A DNA stretch of 64,000 nt from an uncultured Gammaproteobacteria bacterium (GCA_945612235.1 CALZAE010000002.1:28085-92084); one strand, 5' to 3'. Counted from the first letter of the stretch, positions 50,157 through 61,979 are shown. Translations and numbers: made by a program. The notes: a model not told the origin generated them from the sequence alone.

Positions 50157-52751
50157 TTAAGCACTGGTGGTTTCCGCAAGAAACTCTTGCGCAAAACGCT
50201 GCAAGACACCGCCTGCTTCGTAAACCACTTGCTCGGCTGCCGTATCAATACGGCTGAGCATAGGTACACGCACCACTTCACCATTCTTACGGGTGATGAC
50301 TAAAGTCATAGTGTTGCCTGGCTTCAACTCGCCTTCTACGTCGTAGGTTTCAGTACCGTCTAAACCTAATGTTTTACGGGTCGTGCCTTCAGCAAATTGC
50401 AGTGGCAACACACCCATACCAATCAGGTTGGTACGGTGAATACGCTCAAAGCCTTCAGCAGCAATCACTTCAACACCGGCCAAACGCACACCTTTAGCAG
50501 CCCAGTCACGGGATGAACCCTGACCGTAGTCAGCACCGGCAACAATAATCAGCGGCTGTTTGCGCTCCATATAGGTTTCAATCGCTTCCCACATACGGGT
50601 CACTTGGCCTTCTGGCTCAATGCGCGCCAGTGATCCTTGACGGACCTTGCCCTGCTCATCCAAGACCATTTCGTTAAAGAGTTTTGGGTTAGCGAAAGTG
50701 GCACGCTGTGCAGTCAGGTGGTCACCACGGTGGGTAGCGTAGGAGTTGAAGTCAACTTCTGGCAAGCCCATTTTGTGCAGGTATTCACCCGCCGCACTAT
50801 CCATCATGATAGCGTTGGATGGCGACAAGTGGTCCGTGGTGATGTTGTCACCCAGTACCGCTAATGGACGCATACCTTTCATAGTGCGCTCACCAGCCAA
50901 GGCACCTTCCCAGTATGGCGGACGGCGGATATAGGTACTCATCGGACGCCAGTCATACAGCGGGCTTGGTGATTGAGTGATTGAACCTAAGTCAAACATT
51001 GGAATGTAAACTTGGTTGAACTGCTCAGGTTTAACGCTAGCAGCAACAATCGCATCAATCTCAGCATCGGTTGGCCACAGGTCTTTGAGGGTAATTGGAT
51101 TACCTTCTTTATCATGACCCAGTGCATCTTTTTCGATATCGAAACGGATGGTACCGGCGATGGCGTAAGCCACCACTAATGGCGGTGATGCCAAGAATGC
51201 TTGTTTCGCATACGGGTGGATACGGCCATCAAAGTTACGGTTACCCGACAGTACAGCTGTGGCGTACAGGTCGCGGTCAATGATTTCTTGCTGGATCACT
51301 GGATCCAACGCACCGCTCATGCCGTTACAGGTGGTGCAAGCAAAACCAACAATACCGAAACCTAACTGCTCAAGCTCTTCCAGCAGATTGGCATCTTTCA
51401 GGTACAGCTCAGCCACTTTAGAACCTGGAGCAAAGGAAGTTTTCACCCATGGTTTGCGCTCTAAGCCCAACTCGTTGGCTTTACGAGCCACCAATGCCGC
51501 AGCCACGACGTTACGCGGGTTACTGGTGTTGGTACAGCTGGTGATGGCAGCAATAATCACTGCACCATCAGGCATTAAACCTTCTTCTTTTTCCCATCCG
51601 CCAGCAATGCCTTTGGCAGCTAAATCACTGGTCGATACACGTGCATGCGGATTGGATGGGCCAGCCATATTGCGGCCAACAGCAGACAAGTCAAACTTCA
51701 GTACGCGTTCATATTCAGCATCAACTAAGCTATCCGCCCATAAGCCAGATACTTTAGCGTAGTTTTCAACCAAGGCAACTTGCTCTGGCTCGCGACCGGT
51801 CAGGGTTAGATACTCAGTGGTCTGCTGGTCAATGTAGAACATACCAGCGGTTGCGCCGTACTCAGGTGTCATATTAGAAATAGTGGCACGGTCGCCAATC
51901 GACAGAGTCGCAGCACCTTCACCAAAGAACTCGAGGTAAGCACCAACAACGCGCTCTTTACGCAAGAACTCGGTCATTTCCAACACAATATCAGTCGCAG
52001 TAATGCCCGGCTGACGCTGGCCAACCAGCTCAACACCAACGATATTGGGTAAGCGCATCATGGATGGCAAACCAAGCATCACAGTTTCTGCTTCCAAACC
52101 ACCTACACCAATGGCCAATACGCCCAAGGCATCAACGTGCGGGGTATGGCTATCGGTACCAACGCAAGTATCTGGGAAGGCAACACCGTCACGCGCCTGA
52201 ATCACTGGAGACATTTTCTCCAAGTTGATCTGGTGCATGATGCCGTTACCGGCTGGAATCACATCAACGTTTTTAAAGGCTGTTTTGGTCCACTCAATAA
52301 AGTGGAAGCGGTCTTCGTTACGACGATCTTCAATCGTACGGTTTTTATCAAAGGCATCAGGATCACAACCACCGTGCTCAACCGCTAACGAGTGGTCAAC
52401 AATCAACTGAGTTGGGACTACTGGATTGACTTTAGATGGATCGCCACCTTGCTCGGCAATCGCATCACGCAAGCCAGCTAAGTCAACCAGTGCGGTTTGG
52501 CCCAAAATATCATGACAAACAACGCGTGCCGGGTACCAAGGGAAATCTAGATCACTTTTGCGATAAATCAGTTGCTTAAGCGCATCCGTAAGCTCACTCG
52601 GCTCGCAGCGGCGCACTAAGTTTTCTGCAAATATGCGTGATGTGTAAGGCAGCTTGGCATAAGCGCCCGGTTCAATGGCATCAACCGCTTCGCGCACGTC
52701 GTAATAATCGAGTGCTGTGCCAGGTAGTTTTTTACGGAATTGGGTATTCAT
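50157..52751 (-). CDS. acnD: Fe/S-dependent 2-methylisocitrate dehydratase AcnD
   Basis: 864-aa aconitase-family protein (PVVPTQLIVDHSLAVEHGG, CVGTDSHTPHVDALGVLAIGVGGLEAE, AITSCTNTSNPRNVVAAALVARKA) in a prp cluster with prpF. Confidence 0.95.
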   Translation of the reverse strand: MNTQFRKKLPGTALDYYDVREAVDAIEPGAYAKLPYTSRIFAENLVRRCEPSELTDALKQLIYRKSDLDFPWYPARVVCHDILGQTALVDLAGLRDAIAEQGGDPSKVNPVVPTQLIVDHSLAVEHGGCDPDAFDKNRTIEDRRNEDRFHFIEWTKTAFKNVDVIPAGNGIMHQINLEKMSPVIQARDGVAFPDTCVGTDSHTPHVDALGVLAIGVGGLEAETVMLGLPSMMRLPNIVGVELVGQRQPGITATDIVLEMTEFLRKERVVGAYLEFFGEGAATLSIGDRATISNMTPEYGATAGMFYIDQQTTEYLTLTGREPEQVALVENYAKVSGLWADSLVDAEYERVLKFDLSAVGRNMAGPSNPHARVSTSDLAAKGIAGGWEKEEGLMPDGAVIIAAITSCTNTSNPRNVVAAALVARKANELGLERKPWVKTSFAPGSKVAELYLKDANLLEELEQLGFGIVGFACTTCNGMSGALDPVIQQEIIDRDLYATAVLSGNRNFDGRIHPYAKQAFLASPPLVVAYAIAGTIRFDIEKDALGHDKEGNPITLKDLWPTDAEIDAIVAASVKPEQFNQVYIPMFDLGSITQSPSPLYDWRPMSTYIRRPPYWEGALAGERTMKGMRPLAVLGDNITTDHLSPSNAIMMDSAAGEYLHKMGLPEVDFNSYATHRGDHLTAQRATFANPKLFNEMVLDEQGKVRQGSLARIEPEGQVTRMWEAIETYMERKQPLIIVAGADYGQGSSRDWAAKGVRLAGVEVIAAEGFERIHRTNLIGMGVLPLQFAEGTTRKTLGLDGTETYDVEGELKPGNTMTLVITRKNGEVVRVPMLSRIDTAAEQVVYEAGGVLQRFAQEFLAETTSA

Positions 52752-52806
52752 AACGTTTTAAATCCATCAGGTAAACACGGGGGAACGCACCAGACTCAAG
52801 CACAAA

Positions 52807-52834
52807 AACCAGCTATGCGATCACACAGCTGGTT
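52807..52834 (-). terminator. Intercistronic terminator/attenuator-like hairpin between prpC and acnD
   Basis: AACCAGCT-N12-AGCTGGTT perfect 8-bp stem followed on the minus strand by TTTTTG. Confidence 0.5.
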
Positions 52835-52863
52835 CTGGTTTTGGCCGTTAAGCGTTCAAACTC

Positions 52864-54000
52864 TTAGCGCTCGCCAATTGCTGGTACAGGACGCTGCTCT
52901 TCACCGGTGTATTCAGCACTTGGGCGAATAATACGGTTGTTAGCGCGCTGCTCAAAAATATGCGCAGCCCAACCAGTGACGCGTGAGCAGACAAAGATTG
53001 GTGTAAACAGCGGCGTTGGAATACCCATAAAGCGGTACGCAGAAGCATGGAAGAAGTCAGCGTTAGGGAACAAACGCTTTTCATCCCACATAAACTTCTC
53101 GATCGCTTCGGATACAGGGTAAATCACCGTATCGCTAACTTCATCAGCCAGCTTTTTGGCGTAGCCTTTAATCACTTCGTTACGAGGATCAGAATCACGG
53201 TAGATCGCGTGACCAAAGCCCATGATCAGATCTTTACGGGCAATCATCGCCTTGAGTTCAGTCACAGCTTCTTCTGGCGAAGTGAAGCGCTCGATCAACT
53301 CCATCGCAGCTTCGTTTGCACCACCATGCAGAGGACCACGCAGTGAACCAATAGCACCAGTAATGCACGAATACAGATCAGATAGCGTTGACGCACACAC
53401 GCGACCGGTAAAGGTTGATGCGTTAAACTCATGCTCAGCATAGAGAATCAAAGATACGTTCATCACTTCACGGTGCAGCGCACTTGGCGATTTGCCATGC
53501 AACAATGCCAAGAAGTGGCTACCAATATCAGGCTCACTGGTCATGCAATCGATGCGTACACCGTCATGACTGAAGCGGTACCAGTACAGTAAAATTGCAG
53601 GGAACGCTGCAAGCAGACGATCAACTACATCTTGCTGCTGCTCAAAGCTTAACTCTGGCTCTAAAGTACCCAGCATCGCCGTACCCACACGCATCACATC
53701 CATAGGGTGTGCATCAGCTGGAATACGCTCGAGTACTTCTTTGAGCGTGACTGGTAAATCGCGCATATCATGCAAACGCTTTAAATAAGCGGTGAGCTCA
53801 GTCTGGCTTGGCAAATGACCACGCAACAGTAAAAAGGCCACTTCTTCAAAGGTTTTGCAATGCTCGGCTAAATCACGCACATCATAACCACGATAAGTTA
53901 GGCCTGCGCCCTCTTTACCCACAGTACACAATGCTGTTTGTCCAGCAATTTGGCCGCGCAATCCAGCGCCGCTGAGTACTTTTTTCTTTGCTTCAGTCAT
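52864..54000 (-). CDS. prpC: 2-methylcitrate synthase PrpC
   Basis: GLRGQIAGQTALCTVGKEGAGLTYRGYDVRDLAEH, MGFGHAIYRDSDPRNEVIK; start at MTEAKKKVLSGAG preferred over 54078. Confidence 0.95.
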   Translation of the reverse strand: MTEAKKKVLSGAGLRGQIAGQTALCTVGKEGAGLTYRGYDVRDLAEHCKTFEEVAFLLLRGHLPSQTELTAYLKRLHDMRDLPVTLKEVLERIPADAHPMDVMRVGTAMLGTLEPELSFEQQQDVVDRLLAAFPAILLYWYRFSHDGVRIDCMTSEPDIGSHFLALLHGKSPSALHREVMNVSLILYAEHEFNASTFTGRVCASTLSDLYSCITGAIGSLRGPLHGGANEAAMELIERFTSPEEAVTELKAMIARKDLIMGFGHAIYRDSDPRNEVIKGYAKKLADEVSDTVIYPVSEAIEKFMWDEKRLFPNADFFHASAYRFMGIPTPLFTPIFVCSRVTGWAAHIFEQRANNRIIRPSAEYTGEEQRPVPAIGER

Positions 54001-54058
54001 CACGTTATTCCTCGTACTTTTATTATTGGTTCTCACTCTACGGTGATGAACTTTTAAA

Positions 54059-54946
54059 CTAGCTTTTTTTCTGAGCAAACAAAGCGTCTAGGCTCTGCTC
54101 AAAAGCGTGGTAGTTAATGCGGTCATACAATTCCATACGGGTTTGCATGGTATCGACTACATTCTTTTGCGTGCCATCACGACGCACTGCCTCATAGACA
54201 TTTTCCGCGGCTTTGTTCATCGCACGGAACGCTGACAATGGGTACAGTACTAGACCAACATTAGCCGTTCTGAGCTCATCCACAGTAAAGAGTGGTGTTG
54301 CGCCAAACTCGGTAATATTCGCTAAAATTGGTGCATTCACCCGCTCAGCAAACAATTTGTACATCTCAAGTTCAGTAATGGCTTCTGGGAAGACCATATC
54401 AGCACCGGCTTCAACGCACGCTGCTGCGCGGTCTAATGCTGAGTTCAAACCTTCAACCGCTAACGCATCAGTACGCGCCATAATGACAAAACTGTCATCT
54501 TCACGCGCATCAACGGCAGCTTTAATACGGTCAACCATTTCTTGCTGAGTCACGATTTCTTTATTCGGACGGTGGCCACAACGCTTAGCACCCACTTGGT
54601 CTTCAATATGGATCGCAGCAGCGCCCGCTTTACTCATAGATTTCACGGTGCGTGCAACGTTAAACGCAGATGAGCCAAAACCGGTATCCACGTCAACCAG
54701 CAAAGGTAGATCGCAAACGTCGGTAATACGACGCACATCAATCAGCACATCTTCAAGACCGGTAATACCTAAGTCAGGTAAACCCAGTGAACCTGCGGCC
54801 ACACCACCACCTGACAGGTAAATGGCTTTAAAGCCAGCGCGCTGTGCTAATAAAGCATGGTTAGCGTTAATTGCACCGATAACTTGTAGTGGGCTTTCCT
54901 CGATAACCGCATCACGAAAGCGTTGACCTGGAGTTATACGACTCAT
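54059..54946 (-). CDS. prpB: Methylisocitrate lyase PrpB
   Basis: [69 protein letters not shown]. Confidence 0.97.
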
Positions 54947-55665
54947 AATTTACCTCGTAGAGATTGGACGGTGTCATTGGCACCTAGATAATGACGCTCA
55001 ATATTGCGTCGCGATGCAGCGATATGGCGACGCATCAGTAACTCGGCTAATTCACCATCGCCTGCGGCAATGGCATCTAATATGCCGTGGTGTTCTTTAA
55101 AGGCCTGCTGGGGACGGTTGGGCGTGGTCGAATATTGAATTCGGTACATGCGCACCAACTGATACAGTTCCTCAGTCAGCAGTTGCATCAACATGTGATT
55201 GCCACTGCCTTGAATAATTTTGTAATGGAAGTCGTAATCACCTTCTTGCTGGTAATAGCCCACTCCCGCTTGAAATGATGCATCACGCTCATGGGTATCG
55301 AGCACACTGCGCAACTGATTCACTTCAGCAAGGGTCATGCGCTGCGCCGCTAAGCGACATGCCATGCTTTCCAGTGACTCACGTATTTCATACAACTCAA
55401 TTAACTCCGCATGCGACAGCGCAACAACGCGCGCACCTACATGCGGCACCCGAACTAAAAGACGCTGACCTTCTAAGCGATGAATAGCTTCCCGTAACGG
55501 GCCACGACTGATACCGTAAGTGCGCGCTAATTCAGGCTCTGAAATCTTACTGCCTGGCGCAATATCACCGCAGATGATCGCGGCTTGTATGCTACGAAAA
55601 ACCTGTTCGGATAAGGTTGCAGAATCACTGCTGATACGCACAGTCTCATCGTGAAGATCCGCCAC
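54943..55665 (-). CDS. GntR family transcriptional regulator of the prp cluster
   Basis: wHTH ([36 protein letters not shown]) plus FCD-type C-terminus; 4-bp overlap with prpB; GTG start. Confidence 0.93.
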
Positions 55666-55666
55666 A

Positions 55667-55751
55667 GTGTCGACACCTTTAGTTAACCAATGCCTGAAAG
55701 CTACATTCCAGCGCAGTACTTGTCAACAATCTGCGCAACATTGTCGACAAT
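55667..55751. promoter_or_regulatory. Cluster of three TGTC(G/A)ACA operator-like sites upstream of the prp regulator
   Basis: GTGTCGACAC (55667-55676), TTGTCAACAA (55720-55729), ATTGTCGACAAT (55740-55751). Confidence 0.65.
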
Positions 55752-56006
55752 CTTGCGACCAAGGTCGAATATCTGAACATCCAGAGTTAATTATGGTCAA
55801 CTGACCCACGCACTCACTCTATGCTACGCAGCGACCAAGCCACATACGAAAGCACTACAGACGCAGGATTGCATGGTTATTTCTCAGATTGGCGATTAGA
55901 ATAGATCGCCCACCATGCTCAATCTTTATAATAGGGTCGGTTGCAAGCGCCCTAGCCTGAGTCTTACAGCATAGGACACACTTATATTTTGATATTTGCG
56001 AGCACT

Positions 56007-56564
56007 ATGAGATTTAATATTTTTGCACTATTAACCTGCCTAATTGTATTGCCTACCATGAGCAGCGCTGACGAAAAAACTCACTCAAAAAACATCTTCG
56101 GTTTAAATGAGCATGTTTATATTGCTGATATTGATATGAACATGTCCGCTAAACTCGACACTGGAGCAAAAACTGCTTCACTCAGCGCTCGTGATATAGA
56201 GCGCTTTAAACGTGACGGAAAGTCGTGGGTGCGTTTTTACTTGGCGGTAGATGAAGCGCACGAACGTGCTTTTGAACTGCCCTTGGCCCGCATCAGTAAA
56301 ATCAAACGCCGCTCAGGTGACTATGATCCTGAAGAAGATAAAAGCTATACACCAAGACCGGTGGTGCATATGTCAGTTTGCATGGGTAATACACTCAGAA
56401 CAATTGAAGTTAACTTGACCGATCGCAGTACGTTCCAATACCCTTTTCTGTTAGGTTCAAATGCTTTAAAAAAGTTTAGCGCATTAATTGACCCCAGTTT
56501 GAAATACTCTGTCGGTCAACCACAATGCGATACCCAAAATATCAACACTGCCTTTGCTGAGTAA
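56007..56564 (+). CDS. Exported retropepsin-like / 'ATP-dependent zinc protease' family protein
   Basis: Signal peptide; KLDTGAKTASLSA (DTG motif); RPVVHMSVCMGN; FLLGSNAL; start at MRFNIF preferred over TTG at 55989. Confidence 0.85.
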   Translation: MRFNIFALLTCLIVLPTMSSADEKTHSKNIFGLNEHVYIADIDMNMSAKLDTGAKTASLSARDIERFKRDGKSWVRFYLAVDEAHERAFELPLARISKIKRRSGDYDPEEDKSYTPRPVVHMSVCMGNTLRTIEVNLTDRSTFQYPFLLGSNALKKFSALIDPSLKYSVGQPQCDTQNINTAFAE

Positions 56565-56569
56565 TTAAC

Positions 56570-58096
56570 ATGCGTTCTTTGACACTGCACTTAAAAATAC
56601 TAATCGCTCTTTGTGTCATTATTGGCGCATCAGTCACGGCCTATCAGATTTATGTTTTAGGTATTCCTGTATCAGCGGATGAAACAGATAACCTCTGGAA
56701 CATTGATGCCAAGGTTGAGTTTAATGCCAATTCTCGCGAACCAGTCAAGCTGCAGATGTTTGTGCCGCCGCTGAATCAAGACTATGTCAGCCTTAATGAA
56801 AGCTTTATCTCCAACAATTACGGTGTCAGCGTTAATCGCCGTGATGATAACCGTCGTGTGACTTGGTCGGCACGTCGCGCCAGTGGTAAGCAAACCTTGT
56901 ATTACCGCTTGGTGATGACCAAACGCTACAGCGGCGAGCAGATCAAGGCTCAAGGCCCGATTTATCGTGAAACCTTACCCGTCGCCGGCGCTGAAAAAAT
57001 TGCTGCTGAAGCATTGCTCGCACCGATACGCCAGCACTCAGCTGACGTAGAAACCTTTATCAGTGAAGCCATTAAGCGTGTCAATAACACCGCGGACGAT
57101 AATGTACGCTTACTGCTCGGTGGCGACAGCTCCAGTGAGCGCAAGGCGGATGTGATTGATACTTTGCTATCCATTGCCCACGTACCCATGCAGCGCCTCC
57201 ACACCATTCGCCTGCAAGCAGATATCGCACAAACACCTGAACTGTGGCTGCGCAGCTTTAATGGCGAAAAATGGCTGTATTTTAATCCACAGTCAGGCGA
57301 GCAAGGCTTACCTGTTGACCGCATGATTTGGTGGCTCGGCGATGAGCCACTGGTTGAACTGGAAGGGGGTAGCAAAGCGGCGGTGACCTTCACTCTTAAC
57401 AACAGTGAAATCAACGCTATTCGTTTAGCCCAATTGAGCAACGAGAATGCTAACTCAAGCTTCTTAGACTACTCACTGTACGGCTTACCGCTACAAACTC
57501 AGCAAACCTACCAAGTGATGATTATGATCCCGCTGGGCGTGATGATTATTTTGATCTTGCGCAACCTAGGCGGCTTACAAACCTTGGGTACCTTTACCCC
57601 CGTGTTGATTGCTCTAGCCTTCCGTGAAACGCAACTGGGTTTCGGTATTGTGCTGTTTACTATTATTACGTCGCTCGGCTTAGCGCTGCGCTCCTATCTA
57701 GAGCACCTCAAACTACAGATGCTGCCAAGGCTGTCGGTGGTCTTGACCTTTGTTGTGGTCCTGATTGCTGTAATCAGCTTGTTTAGCCACAAGTTAGGTT
57801 TAGAGCGCGGCTTGTCCGTGTCCTTGTTCCCAATGGTGATTTTGACTATGACCATTGAGCGCCTATCAATTACTTGGGAAGAGCGCGGTGGCAGTCATGC
57901 CTTTAAAGTGGCCATCGGTACTTTGTTTGCCGCATCACTGGCGCATTACTTAATGAGCATCTCGGAGCTGAACTACTTTATCTTTACCTTCCCAGCGGTA
58001 CTGTTAATTATGGTGGGCTTTATGTTGGCGATGGGTCGCTACCGCGGCTACCGTTTAACAGAGTTGTTCCGTTTCAAAGCCTTCTTAAAGGACTGA
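56570..58096 (+). CDS. Inactive transglutaminase-domain protein with C-terminal 7TM region
   Basis: N-terminal TM, periplasmic transglutaminase-like region (ADVIDTLLSIAHVPMQRLHTIRL...GEKWLYFNPQSGEQGLP) without a Cys, then multiple TM helices. Confidence 0.85.
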   Translation: MRSLTLHLKILIALCVIIGASVTAYQIYVLGIPVSADETDNLWNIDAKVEFNANSREPVKLQMFVPPLNQDYVSLNESFISNNYGVSVNRRDDNRRVTWSARRASGKQTLYYRLVMTKRYSGEQIKAQGPIYRETLPVAGAEKIAAEALLAPIRQHSADVETFISEAIKRVNNTADDNVRLLLGGDSSSERKADVIDTLLSIAHVPMQRLHTIRLQADIAQTPELWLRSFNGEKWLYFNPQSGEQGLPVDRMIWWLGDEPLVELEGGSKAAVTFTLNNSEINAIRLAQLSNENANSSFLDYSLYGLPLQTQQTYQVMIMIPLGVMIILILRNLGGLQTLGTFTPVLIALAFRETQLGFGIVLFTIITSLGLALRSYLEHLKLQMLPRLSVVLTFVVVLIAVISLFSHKLGLERGLSVSLFPMVILTMTIERLSITWEERGGSHAFKVAIGTLFAASLAHYLMSISELNYFIFTFPAVLLIMVGFMLAMGRYRGYRLTELFRFKAFLKD

Positions 58097-58100
58097 TGCC

Positions 58101-59087
58101 ATGTTTGGGTTTGGTTTAATTAAAACGTGGCGCGAGCTTAACGCCAAAGGCATTATGGGCATCAACCGCCGTAATGCCGATTATGTACTCAAGTACAATA
58201 AGCGCAGCTTGTATCCAGTGGTGGATGACAAAATCCTCACCAAAGAACGAGCAATTAAAGCTGGCATTAATGTGCCAGAAATGTACGGTATTATTTCCAG
58301 TGAAAAGGAAATTGAAAAGCTCAATCAAATCATCGGCGAGCGCACTGACTTTGTGATCAAACCTGCCATGGGTGCAGGTGGTGACGGTATTTTAGTGATC
58401 GCCGACCGTTTTGAGGATCGCTATAAAACAGTCTCCGGAAAAATCATCAGTCACGAAGAAATCGAACATCAGATTTCTAGTATCCTGACCGGCTTATATT
58501 CTTTAGGTGGCTCACGTGACCGCGCGTTAATTGAATACCGCGTCAAGCCTGATCCACTGTTTAAAAGCATCAGCTATGAAGGTGTACCGGATATTCGCGT
58601 CATTGTACTGATGGGCTACCCCATTATGGCGATGCTGCGTTTACCCACACGCCAGTCCGGCGGTAAAGCCAACCTGCACCAAGGTGCAATTGGCGTAGGT
58701 GTGGATCTAGCCACGGGTCTGACATTGCAAGGCACTTGGCTGAATAACAAAATCAGCAAGCACCCAGATACCAGTAACTTTGTTGCCGGTGTGCAACTGC
58801 CAGACTGGGATGGCTTTATGACCCTGTCTGCAGGCTGCTATGAGCTGTGTGGCTTGGGTTATATTGGTGTAGATATGGTGCTAGACCAAGAGTTAGGCCC
58901 GCTGATTTTAGAGCTTAACGCCCGTCCAGGCCTCAATATTCAGATCGCTAACAACGCCGGTTTAACTTTACGCGCGCATGCTGTCGAGCATCATATTGCT
59001 GATCTAAAACGCAAAGGCATCACTGAGACTGTTGAAGAGCGCGTGCGCTTCTCACAATCTTTATTCGCCGCCACTCCCTCTCAATAA
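58101..59087 (+). CDS. Alpha-L-glutamate ligase-like ATP-grasp protein
   Basis: DFVIKPAMGAGGDGILVI, PDIRVIVLMGYPIMAMLRLPT, GPLILELNARPGLNIQIAN; no signal peptide. Confidence 0.9.
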   Translation: MFGFGLIKTWRELNAKGIMGINRRNADYVLKYNKRSLYPVVDDKILTKERAIKAGINVPEMYGIISSEKEIEKLNQIIGERTDFVIKPAMGAGGDGILVIADRFEDRYKTVSGKIISHEEIEHQISSILTGLYSLGGSRDRALIEYRVKPDPLFKSISYEGVPDIRVIVLMGYPIMAMLRLPTRQSGGKANLHQGAIGVGVDLATGLTLQGTWLNNKISKHPDTSNFVAGVQLPDWDGFMTLSAGCYELCGLGYIGVDMVLDQELGPLILELNARPGLNIQIANNAGLTLRAHAVEHHIADLKRKGITETVEERVRFSQSLFAATPSQ

Positions 59088-59148: not shown

Positions 59149-60504
59149 ATGCATACTTGCCTGCTTGTTCCGCTCACCTATCACACTAATCCTGCACACT
59201 ACTTCCAACGGATTCATGCCCAAAGCGGCGCGGTCTTACTCGACTCGGGCTACCCTGTCAGCCAGCGTGGACGTTTTGATATCCTCAGTGCTCAACCTTT
59301 AGAGACTATTACGCCGCAGCCCAATGAACAGGTTGATGCCTTTCGCCAACGCTGCCAAGCGCTACTGCAACAGTTGCCTCTATGCCATGCACCTACAGAC
59401 GCTGAACTACCCTTTACCGGTGGTTTAATCGGCTACCTGACCTATGAGTTCAATAGCTTAGCGCAATGCACGCAGACCGAAGGCTTAGCCAGTGCCGCGG
59501 TGGGGTTGTATAACTGGGCGGTGATCAGCGACCATCAACTGCAGCGCTGCTGGTTCATGTGCCACCCCAGCTTAAGCGCTGAACGTCAAAACGAGCTGTT
59601 GAGTCTGTTTACGAGTACTGCCGCACTGCAGCCCACTGCGGCTTTCACCTTAAACAGCCCCTTTACTGCACAGATAAATGCGCAGCGTTATCGTGATGAC
59701 CTTGAGCGTATTCATAACTATATTGCCGCCGGCGACTGCTATCAGGTTAACTACACTCAGCGCTTTAACAGCACATACCAAGGCGATGCCTGGTACGCGT
59801 ACAAGAGTTTACGGGAACGCTGCCCGACTCCTTTTGCTAGTTTTATCCGAGTTAATCAGCAACAAGCCATTATCAGCCTTTCGCCTGAGCGTTTTTTGCA
59901 GGTACGCCAAGGTCAGGTTGAAAGCCGCCCAATCAAAGGTACGCGCGCGCGCAGTGCAACTCCAGCGCAGGATCAAGCGTTGTCCGATGATTTATTAGCC
60001 AGCCCGAAAGACCGTGCTGAGAACCTGATGATTGTTGATTTACTGCGCAATGATTTAGGCCGCTACTGCACGCCGGGCAGTATTCGCGTCCCTGAGTTAT
60101 TTGCCCTAGAAAGCTATCCTAATGTGCACCATATGGTCAGTAGCGTCACTGGCACACTGGCACATCAGCACAACGCTCTAGACGTACTTATCGGCAGCTT
60201 CCCTGGCGGCTCAATCACCGGCGCACCCAAGCGTCGGGCCATGCAAATCATTAGTGAGCTGGAAGCCAGCGTGCGCAGTATTTATTGCGGCAGTATTTTC
60301 TATCTCGATACGCGCGGTGAAATGGACAGCTCCATCACCATTCGCACTTTACTGGCTAATCACGGCGCCATCAGCTGCTGGGGTGGCGGCGGGATTGTCT
60401 ATGACTCGTCGATTGACGATGAATATCAGGAGTCCATCCAAAAAGTGCAGGTGCTGATGAGCGCACTGGAAGAACTGCATACAGCACCAGCCACACCGAA
60501 TTAA
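59149..60504 (+). CDS. pabB: Aminodeoxychorismate synthase component I
   Basis: FTGGLIGYLTYEF, AGDCYQVNYTQRF, PIKGTRARS, ENLMIVDLLRNDLGRYC, GSFPGGSITGAPKRRAMQII. Confidence 0.95.
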   Translation: MHTCLLVPLTYHTNPAHYFQRIHAQSGAVLLDSGYPVSQRGRFDILSAQPLETITPQPNEQVDAFRQRCQALLQQLPLCHAPTDAELPFTGGLIGYLTYEFNSLAQCTQTEGLASAAVGLYNWAVISDHQLQRCWFMCHPSLSAERQNELLSLFTSTAALQPTAAFTLNSPFTAQINAQRYRDDLERIHNYIAAGDCYQVNYTQRFNSTYQGDAWYAYKSLRERCPTPFASFIRVNQQQAIISLSPERFLQVRQGQVESRPIKGTRARSATPAQDQALSDDLLASPKDRAENLMIVDLLRNDLGRYCTPGSIRVPELFALESYPNVHHMVSSVTGTLAHQHNALDVLIGSFPGGSITGAPKRRAMQIISELEASVRSIYCGSIFYLDTRGEMDSSITIRTLLANHGAISCWGGGGIVYDSSIDDEYQESIQKVQVLMSALEELHTAPATPN

Positions 60505-61400
60505 AACTGCGTTTTGATAATATAAGCTGCTGCTAATGCGCCACCCAGACAGGCTATAAAACCCACCAGCGCTTGCCCGTACAAGCGCTTGGCAATACTT
60601 TCTTCGCTGTAATTGGACAACACAAATGGCCGCCCTTCTAAGGATTGACGCAAATAATGTTGTGCTGGCTCAAGCTGCTGCGCTTGCTGCATCGATAGGG
60701 CCTGCTGCTCGGCCGCTGCACGCACAGTTTGCCACTCCGTCAAATCCAGCTCGCCATTGCCATCGCGATCAAAGCGTTGCAGCAAATCGTTAAAGTCATC
60801 CTTCCACTCACGAATCACTGCACCTTGAGTGGCGCGCAGATCAAGTACTTCACGCCCTTGCCCACGGGTGACAAAGTCACCTATGGCATAGAGCGGCTCA
60901 TGCACATGCAAGCGCTGTTCCGTATAGCGATAACGCTTACTGCCAACCAGAAAATTACGTAAGAAATGCCTGTGCATTTGATGTTTTAACGGGTGTCTAC
61001 TTTGGCCATACCACACCTGTTTTGTCATAGGTATAACGTGCGCACCCTGAGGGTCAATCCAACACTCGCCGGTGCCATCGCTCAAACATAACAATGCGGT
61101 ACTGCGACCTTTTTCAACATTCTTCCAACGCGTAGCATTACGCTCGCTTTGCACTTGCTCATCAATAGCAAAAGACCACCAGACACAGGGTTGCGCACTG
61201 AGCGGGCCATTGAGCGACTCTGCGCGCGGCTCAATCACGCCGTACAACTCAACATAACCTTGCGCTGCTGAGCGTATTTTAGAGGTGGGCGTATCCAGTA
61301 AATAGCGGGCTTTCTTCAGATTGTGCAAACACCACCAGCCGCCACCCAAAGTTGCTAGCGCAGTAACAGCCAAGGTCACAATCAGCCCAAAACTATCCAC
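60501..61400 (-). CDS. GIDE-domain (MULAN-like) membrane protein with an EF-hand
   Basis: N-terminal TM, KIRSAAQGYVELYGVIEPRAE...LSAQPCVWWSF; canonical EF-hand loop DRDGNGELDLTEW; C-terminal TM. Confidence 0.75.
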   Translation of the reverse strand: MDSFGLIVTLAVTALATLGGGWWCLHNLKKARYLLDTPTSKIRSAAQGYVELYGVIEPRAESLNGPLSAQPCVWWSFAIDEQVQSERNATRWKNVEKGRSTALLCLSDGTGECWIDPQGAHVIPMTKQVWYGQSRHPLKHQMHRHFLRNFLVGSKRYRYTEQRLHVHEPLYAIGDFVTRGQGREVLDLRATQGAVIREWKDDFNDLLQRFDRDGNGELDLTEWQTVRAAAEQQALSMQQAQQLEPAQHYLRQSLEGRPFVLSNYSEESIAKRLYGQALVGFIACLGGALAAAYIIKTQF

Positions 61401-61406
61401 TGCGGG

Positions 61407-61979
61407 TTAACCGAATAGGCTTTTAATATCAACATCAGCTAACTCGGCATCGCTAAAGCGCAACAACTCAGCTGCCACAAAGTTAAAGTAACGCGCAATC
61501 AACACATCAGGAAATTGCTCAATACGCACATTATTCAAATTCACTGCTTCGTTATACAACTCCCGACGATCAGCAATGGCGCTTTCTAAGGCACTGATGC
61601 GCTGCTGTAAAAACTTAAAGTTTTCATTGGCTTTCAATTCGGGGTAATTTTCTGCCAAAGCAAATAACTTGCCTAGACCTAAACGCAAGCCTGTTTCTGC
61701 TGTGCCCAGCGCACTGACATCATGCTGCTCACGGGCATTGGAAACCGCATTACGCGCAGTAATCACCGCTTCTAAAGTTTGACGCTCATGCTGCATATAC
61801 TGTTTGCAGGTTTCCACCAACTTAGGCAACTCTTCATGACGCTGCTTGAGCAAAACATCAATATTGGCCCACGCCTTAGTCACACTATGTTTTAAGCGTA
61901 CCAAGGCGTTGTATAAGCTGACCGCCCAAGCCGCAAGCAAAATAGCTACGACCACCACAGCCACCAGGAAAAAACTCAT
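61407..61979 (-). CDS. LemA family protein
   Basis: N-terminal TM, YNALVRLKHSVTKAWANIDVLLKQRHEELPKLVETCKQYMQHE, AENYPELKANENFKFLQQRISALESAIADRRELYNEAVN. Confidence 0.95.
   Translation of the reverse strand: MSFFLVAVVVVAILLAAWAVSLYNALVRLKHSVTKAWANIDVLLKQRHEELPKLVETCKQYMQHERQTLEAVITARNAVSNAREQHDVSALGTAETGLRLGLGKLFALAENYPELKANENFKFLQQRISALESAIADRRELYNEAVNLNNVRIEQFPDVLIARYFNFVAAELLRFSDAELADVDIKSLFG

Follow-up and report, generated by a model that had tools for sequence, protein, structure and literature searches.

Polyglutamylation of RpsF is carried out by RimK, and the Glu chain is removed in the cytosol by RimB. RimK also produces free polyglutamate (polyE; PMC11957791). The rloABC operon, characterised in Pseudomonas aeruginosa in June 2025, protects cells in low-salt media (PMC12239564). 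The three proteases RloA, RloA2 and RloA3 are retropepsin-like and carry signal peptides; in vitro, RloA cuts stretches of at least eight Glu residues (reporters with 8 or 10 were cleaved, those with 6 were not) and also cleaves RimB substrates, its orthologues form homodimers with a shared active site, and the catalytic Asp together with R114 and R137 is required in vivo (PMC12239564). A mutant lacking all three RloA proteases does not grow without salt, has short and wide cells, forms poor biofilms and is sensitive to β-lactams, while deletion of rloB or rloC in this background fully rescues the low-salt growth and partly the other phenotypes (PMC12239564). When the exopolysaccharide levels of flagellar mutants were studied, insertions in PA1766-PA1768 came up among the suppressors (PMC7314104), and in Shewanella vesicle output rises when a gene annotated as an inactive transglutaminase fused to seven transmembrane (TM) helices is disrupted (PMC12096838).

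The window analysed here, a stretch of 64,000 nucleotides from an uncultured member of the Gammaproteobacteria, carries on its plus strand three tightly packed genes that almost certainly constitute an rloABC operon. The ORF calls place the intergenic gaps at exactly 5 bp (rloA/rloB) and 4 bp (rloB/rloC), as the initial annotation had it. The domain calls made there, namely a DTG protease, a membrane protein and a RimK-like ATP-grasp ligase, were borne out by Pfam and NCBIfam matches (NCBIfam release 20, with the cut-offs of the models for RloA1, RloB and TIGR02291), the searches with PF05618, PF14400/PF14402 and TIGR02291 all giving matches. The locus encodes a secreted RloA with a DTGA site and all eight polyE-contact residues, an RloB with a dead transglutaminase-like domain and a seven-TM (7TM) part, and an ATP-grasp RloC of the TIGR02291 type, in the order A-B-C on one strand; a survey of the neighbourhoods in relatives found this order kept through the family, far beyond chance. 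The initial annotation knew of no firmly established substrate for such a trio and had named a characterised role as something that would tell against its proposal of a candidate envelope peptide-modification system; such a role now exists (PMC12239564), so that on this point the proposal is partly overtaken. Its idea of an envelope function involving glutamate is supported. The operon itself is thus already known, and the additions made here are its setting in the genus and a sister family with a live transglutaminase.

The intergenic region upstream of rloA (55666..56006), presumed to hold the promoter, lies between rloA and a divergent GntR-type regulator gene (54943-55665, minus strand; ORF call). 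Sigma-70-like sites in this region scored no better than chance in a scan, and no AlgU-like site was convincingly conserved across the relatives; a conserved promoter for the rlo operon was therefore rejected. The minus strand of the window at 50157-55665 carries a propionate/methylcitrate-type cluster with aconitase-, citrate-synthase-, isocitrate-lyase- and GntR-type genes, named from ORF reading only, the end of which lies directly upstream of rloA. On the same strand at 60501-61979, downstream of a pabB-like gene, a LemA-like gene adjoins one for a membrane protein with an EF-hand-like segment (DRDGNGELDLTEW), the names again being given by reading only.

The mechanism that we favour, at about even odds, is that RloC makes a glutamate chain that the 7TM part of RloB exports and RloA trims. 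RloC, a RimK-like ATP-grasp enzyme, would build an α-linked glutamate chain in the cytosol, either free or on a carrier; the 7TM part of RloB, forming a unit with RloC, would carry the chain through the inner membrane; on the periplasmic side, the dead transglutaminase-like domain would hold but not cut it, and RloA, the secreted, dimeric retropepsin, would trim it. The uncut product may damage the wall or the turgor balance at low osmolarity, which would explain why the loss of RloA is lethal under that condition only while RloB and RloC are present.

RloA (56007..56564, plus strand; 185 aa) matches PF05618 with 148 bits and the NCBIfam RloA1 model NF052262 with 288.6 bits (cut-off 280). The PDB search returned the solved homologues 9g58 (E 2e-67) and 9g59 (E 2e-43), which agree in length with the constructs of P. 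fluorescens RloA and P. aeruginosa RloA2 (PMC12239564), and also 2pma. This close homology supports a retropepsin fold (clan AA, A2-like) for the predicted protein, as the initial annotation had expected of its DTG protein, and the D-T-G motif (56157..56165) is followed by A as in clan AA proteases. The zinc protease suggested by the old Pfam name of PF05618 was rejected in view of the DTG aspartic site and the solved homologues. The gene probably starts at the ATG at 56007 and not, as originally called, at the TTG at 55989, since the N-terminus MRFNIFALL... is common to the genus and the TTG-derived extension finds no support; the ATG yields the N-terminus MRFNIFALLTCLIVLPTMSSA-DEK, in which MRFNIFALLTCLIVLPTMSSA is, on reading of the sequence, a type-I-like signal peptide (56007..56069), with the same type of N-terminus in the genus relatives. 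The residues that contact polyE in P. aeruginosa RloA (K46, R92, K95, K97, R99, K109, R114 and R137) are all identical in the window protein, the numbering differing by a constant offset of +9 when counted from the TTG, and both Cys residues that match the published disulfide are present. Among 114 RloB-linked RloA sequences the catalytic Asp is invariant (114/114), and the equivalents of R114 and R137 are kept in 110 and 108, respectively. The conservation of these residues for polyE cleavage, and their requirement in vivo, speak against the reading that RloA cuts RloB itself in a form of regulated proteolysis, with the activity on Glu chains being incidental. The epistasis of the rloB and rloC deletions to the loss of the RloA proteases would fit such proteolysis, but RloA needs about eight consecutive Glu residues and the RloB sequence has no such stretch, which makes this reading very improbable.

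RloB (56570..58096, plus strand; 508 aa) matches PF14400 (160 bits) and PF14402 (320 bits) and scores 1026 with NF052267 (cut-off 900). Its AlphaFold2 model (pLDDT 84) comprises an N-terminal TM helix, a periplasmic domain (residues 31-300; 56660..57469) and a C-terminal 7TM domain (residues 301-508; 57470..58093). The best PDB match of the model is 3isr, a transglutaminase-like cysteine-protease fold (E 1e-8), and the periplasmic domain is accordingly modelled as transglutaminase-like in fold. The alignment places Ser, Glu and Asn at the columns of the Cys-His-Asp triad, so that the domain, judged by these residues, is dead and not an active transglutaminase or papain-like enzyme. The only cysteine of the protein, C15 (56612..56614), lies in TM1, is not catalytic and is missing from most relatives outside the genus; the place of this Cys and the lack of the usual triad chemistry had been correctly read in the initial annotation. 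No solved structure resembles the 7TM part of the model, and no solved transporter fold was matched; PDB sequence searches with RloB and with RloC gave nothing significant. Conservation in the rlo-type RloB proteins is concentrated in the 7TM part, which holds 42 of the 53 invariant positions (42/208 positions, vs 11/270 in the periplasmic part); R331, R374, E430-R431, W436-G440 and G489-F502 are conserved and presumably face the cytosol. These features bear on a second alternative, in which the polyglutamate made by RloC would serve as a cytosolic osmolyte or signal in turgor regulation and RloB would be no transporter but a sensor binding released glutamate peptides in the periplasm. The want of a known transporter fold in the 7TM part, the low-osmolarity growth phenotype and the ability of dead enzyme domains to act as binding domains are all in keeping with it; the invariant residues, however, lie in the 7TM part and not in the putative sensor domain, and a cytosolic product of RloC would not meet RloA, which is predicted to be outside the cytosol. 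We therefore consider it improbable.

RloC (58101..59087, plus strand; 328 aa) is predicted to be a cytosolic ATP-grasp ligase in which the conserved ATP-grasp residues are present by alignment. It scores 532 bits with TIGR02291 (cut-off 314), and its AlphaFold2 model (pLDDT 93) finds its nearest PDB folds in ArgX with bound LysW/Glu (3vpb) and in RimK (5zct). Its best Pfam match is PF14397, the 'sugar-transfer associated' ATP-grasp family (316 bits), that to PF08443 (RimK) being weaker (35), and it falls far under the RimK model (50.6 vs a cut-off of 143.4). Membership in the Rim system was rejected on the model scores and the extracytosolic location, RloA carrying a signal peptide where a Rim protease is cytosolic and has none; a defence system was rejected as well, PADLOC giving no match. 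The association in the name of PF14397 fits a further possibility, that RloC glutamylates an existing molecule, such as an envelope protein before export or a lipid-linked or peptidoglycan precursor, which RloB flips or guides and whose Glu chain RloA strips off in the periplasm, the counterpart of the action of RimB on RpsF in the cytosol. RimK and RimB provide the precedent for a protein substrate, and the mutant phenotypes, shape and β-lactam sensitivity, concern the wall. Against this, RimK as the closest precedent also makes free polyE (PMC11957791), and the loci of the relatives contain no candidate carrier gene conserved within the operon; we regard glutamylation of an existing molecule as a serious but rather unlikely explanation.

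The 46 of 59 relatives that have RloB are also precisely those that have RloC. In a sample of 229 genomes of the class, 42 had an RloC match over 100 bits and every one of these also had RloB; five genomes carried a divergent 7TM protein with no RloC. The two proteins are thus coupled in their occurrence and almost never found apart, while RloA usually adjoins the pair and is unlinked in some genomes. One metagenome-assembled genome carries RloB and RloC fused in a single ORF of 838 aa (L048:2976-5492, G238:C24), in which TM1 and the 7TM part flank a transglutaminase core (PF01841) with a live Cys-His-Asp triad; being a single case, it may be an assembly error. The C-terminus of RloB would be cytosolic, since TM1 enters from the cytosol and is followed by seven further TM helices, and the fusion to RloC requires the same. 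In two genomes (G360 and G401), a 7TM-only RloB of about 375-385 aa with no transglutaminase domain still adjoins RloC. Such a 7TM-only RloB beside RloC is seen at L096:2400-4458 and L097, the former with a putative outer-membrane-barrel gene just upstream. Three loci (L052, L053 and L054) encode divergent PF14402 proteins that lack the catalytic Cys; they have no RloC, and a PF05618 gene lies close by on the other strand.

For the reading in which RloC synthesises polyglutamate, RloB transports it and the dead domain holds it, we infer each role, and the coupling of RloB with RloC and the conservation of the 7TM part strengthen the case for export and binding by RloB. Orthology, the polyE-contact residues, the fusion, the 7TM-only RloB beside RloC, the Glu ligases among the nearest folds of RloC, the lack of RimK and of other PF05618 proteases in the genus (see below) and the published genetics also favour it, and the low RimK score of RloC, its best match to PF14397, the 7TM part without a solved transporter match and the dead-domain loci with no rloA (see below) count against it.

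The genus to which the window belongs offers a simple setting for this system. Each of the 12 genus genomes considered (the window's own genome and 11 relatives, G001-G011, of which G005 and G009 are single-contig) encodes exactly one PF05618 protein, RloA. None of the 12 has a RimK over the cut-off (the best score in the own genome being 63.6 bits vs 143.4) or a RimB; the own genome is 82.5% complete, so that these absences lean on its complete relatives. RimK over the cut-off is also absent from three other genomes of the family (G013, G018, G035) and four of the order (G045, G046, G051, G054), whereas most other members of the family have two to five PF05618 proteins and a RimK, and RimB too is present in most of them. 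Should the substrate of RloA be polyglutamate, RloC is left as the RimK-like candidate for making it, and we infer that it is the best candidate source of the polyglutamate cut by RloA in the genus. The work in P. aeruginosa, where the operon bears on shape, biofilm and β-lactam sensitivity, was hampered by three redundant proteases and by RimB/RimK; with a single RloA and no RimK, neither that redundancy nor confusion with RimK polyglutamate arises here, leaving one ligase and one protease, and deleting rloA by itself should be enough to give the phenotype.

An alignment of 135 RloB homologues revealed a full Cys-His-Asp triad (ASCNGK ... SHQW ... PFD) in 11 loci and no Cys at the triad column in the others. 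RloA is adjacent in none of the 11 live-triad loci, while the fetched stretch contains an rloA in 109 of 118 distinct dead-domain loci and none in the remaining nine (about 8%). A genome-wide search, covering the 11 live-triad genomes only, found seven without any PF05618 protein, two (G238, G368) with one each beside a RimK-like gene, one (G159) with one that lacks a signal peptide, and one (G091) that also has a normal rlo operon. Scanning named genomes for matches to the live-type profile gave 227 relatives, of which the best 80 were examined (L144-L223). These came from the Gammaproteobacteria, Zetaproteobacteria (Mariprofundaceae, Ghiorsea), Nitrospirota, Desulfobulbaceae, Campylobacterota, Myxococcota, Bdellovibrionota, Bacteroidota, Spirochaetota, Fibrobacterota, Calditrichota and Krumholzibacteriota, and the live-triad sister group thus spans at least 10 phyla. 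Of the best 80 loci, 75 have a full RloC gene next to them or close by, the other five ending at or near contig ends, and RloA is in none of the 80; over both samples the count is 0/91, which is not a count of distinct loci because the samples share at least nine records. As the peptide ASCNGK served as the scan pattern, the Cys is present in all 80 by construction, and the informative results are that RloA is absent and RloC present. A TPR gene family occurs in 66 of the 80 loci and outer-membrane-barrel-like families in 31 and 8, mostly downstream. None of the live-type proteins tested passes the NCBIfam RloB or TIGR02291 cut-off, and the literature search for the live version yielded only the 2025 Rlo paper (PMC12239564) and the Shewanella vesicle screen as relevant.

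In a tree built on the 7TM part of the RloB homologues, the rlo type (I), the live type (II), a third type (III; Cys-less, with no RloC and usually with RloA nearby) and the 7TM-only type (IV) each fall on one side of a branch. The tree separates types I and III, but a single clade of the two is compatible with the data (p-AU 0.30), and two independent losses of the catalytic Cys are thus unsupported; a single change may therefore underlie the association of the dead domain with RloA, and the pattern may rest on few evolutionary events. We tentatively suggest, with more doubt than confidence, that RloB-RloC is the common core of envelope machines in at least 10 phyla, which would all keep the 7TM exporter and the Glu ligase and exchange the periplasmic module: this would be a live transglutaminase accompanied by TPR and outer-membrane partners, a dead domain with RloA, or missing altogether. 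The live module would attach or cut the exported chain, and the rlo domain would have given up its catalytic residues as RloA assumed the task. The live sister also provides an independent handle, as its catalytic Cys can be changed to Ala and the change should report the action of the periplasmic module on the product, and the outer-membrane-type genes of its operon point to where the product may go.

Amongst the named systems, rloABC of P. aeruginosa PA14 (PA14_41690-41730; PA1768-1766; PMC12239564) has the same three genes in the same order as the window, whose proteins each pass the corresponding NCBIfam model with identical catalytic and polyE-contact residues; PA14 has RloA2, RloA3 and RimB/RimK in addition, whereas the window's genus has the single PF05618 protein and no RimK over the cut-off. 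RimB-RimK likewise pairs a PF05618 protease with a RimK-like ATP-grasp ligase, but RimB has no signal peptide, rim has no 7TM partner, and the window proteins fall far under both the RimB model (78.8 of 200) and, as described above, that for RimK (50.6 of 143.4). ArgX/LysX, the LysW-glutamate/-aminoadipate ligases, provide the nearest solved fold to RloC, including the Glu-bound complex 3vpb, although the identity is 16% and the rlo operon has no LysW carrier gene. The live-transglutaminase sister shares the 7TM core and the ATP-grasp partner (about 22% identity for the window's RloB and 38% for its RloC) and differs in its intact triad, the absence of an adjacent RloA, the extra TPR and outer-membrane-type genes and its occurrence in many phyla.
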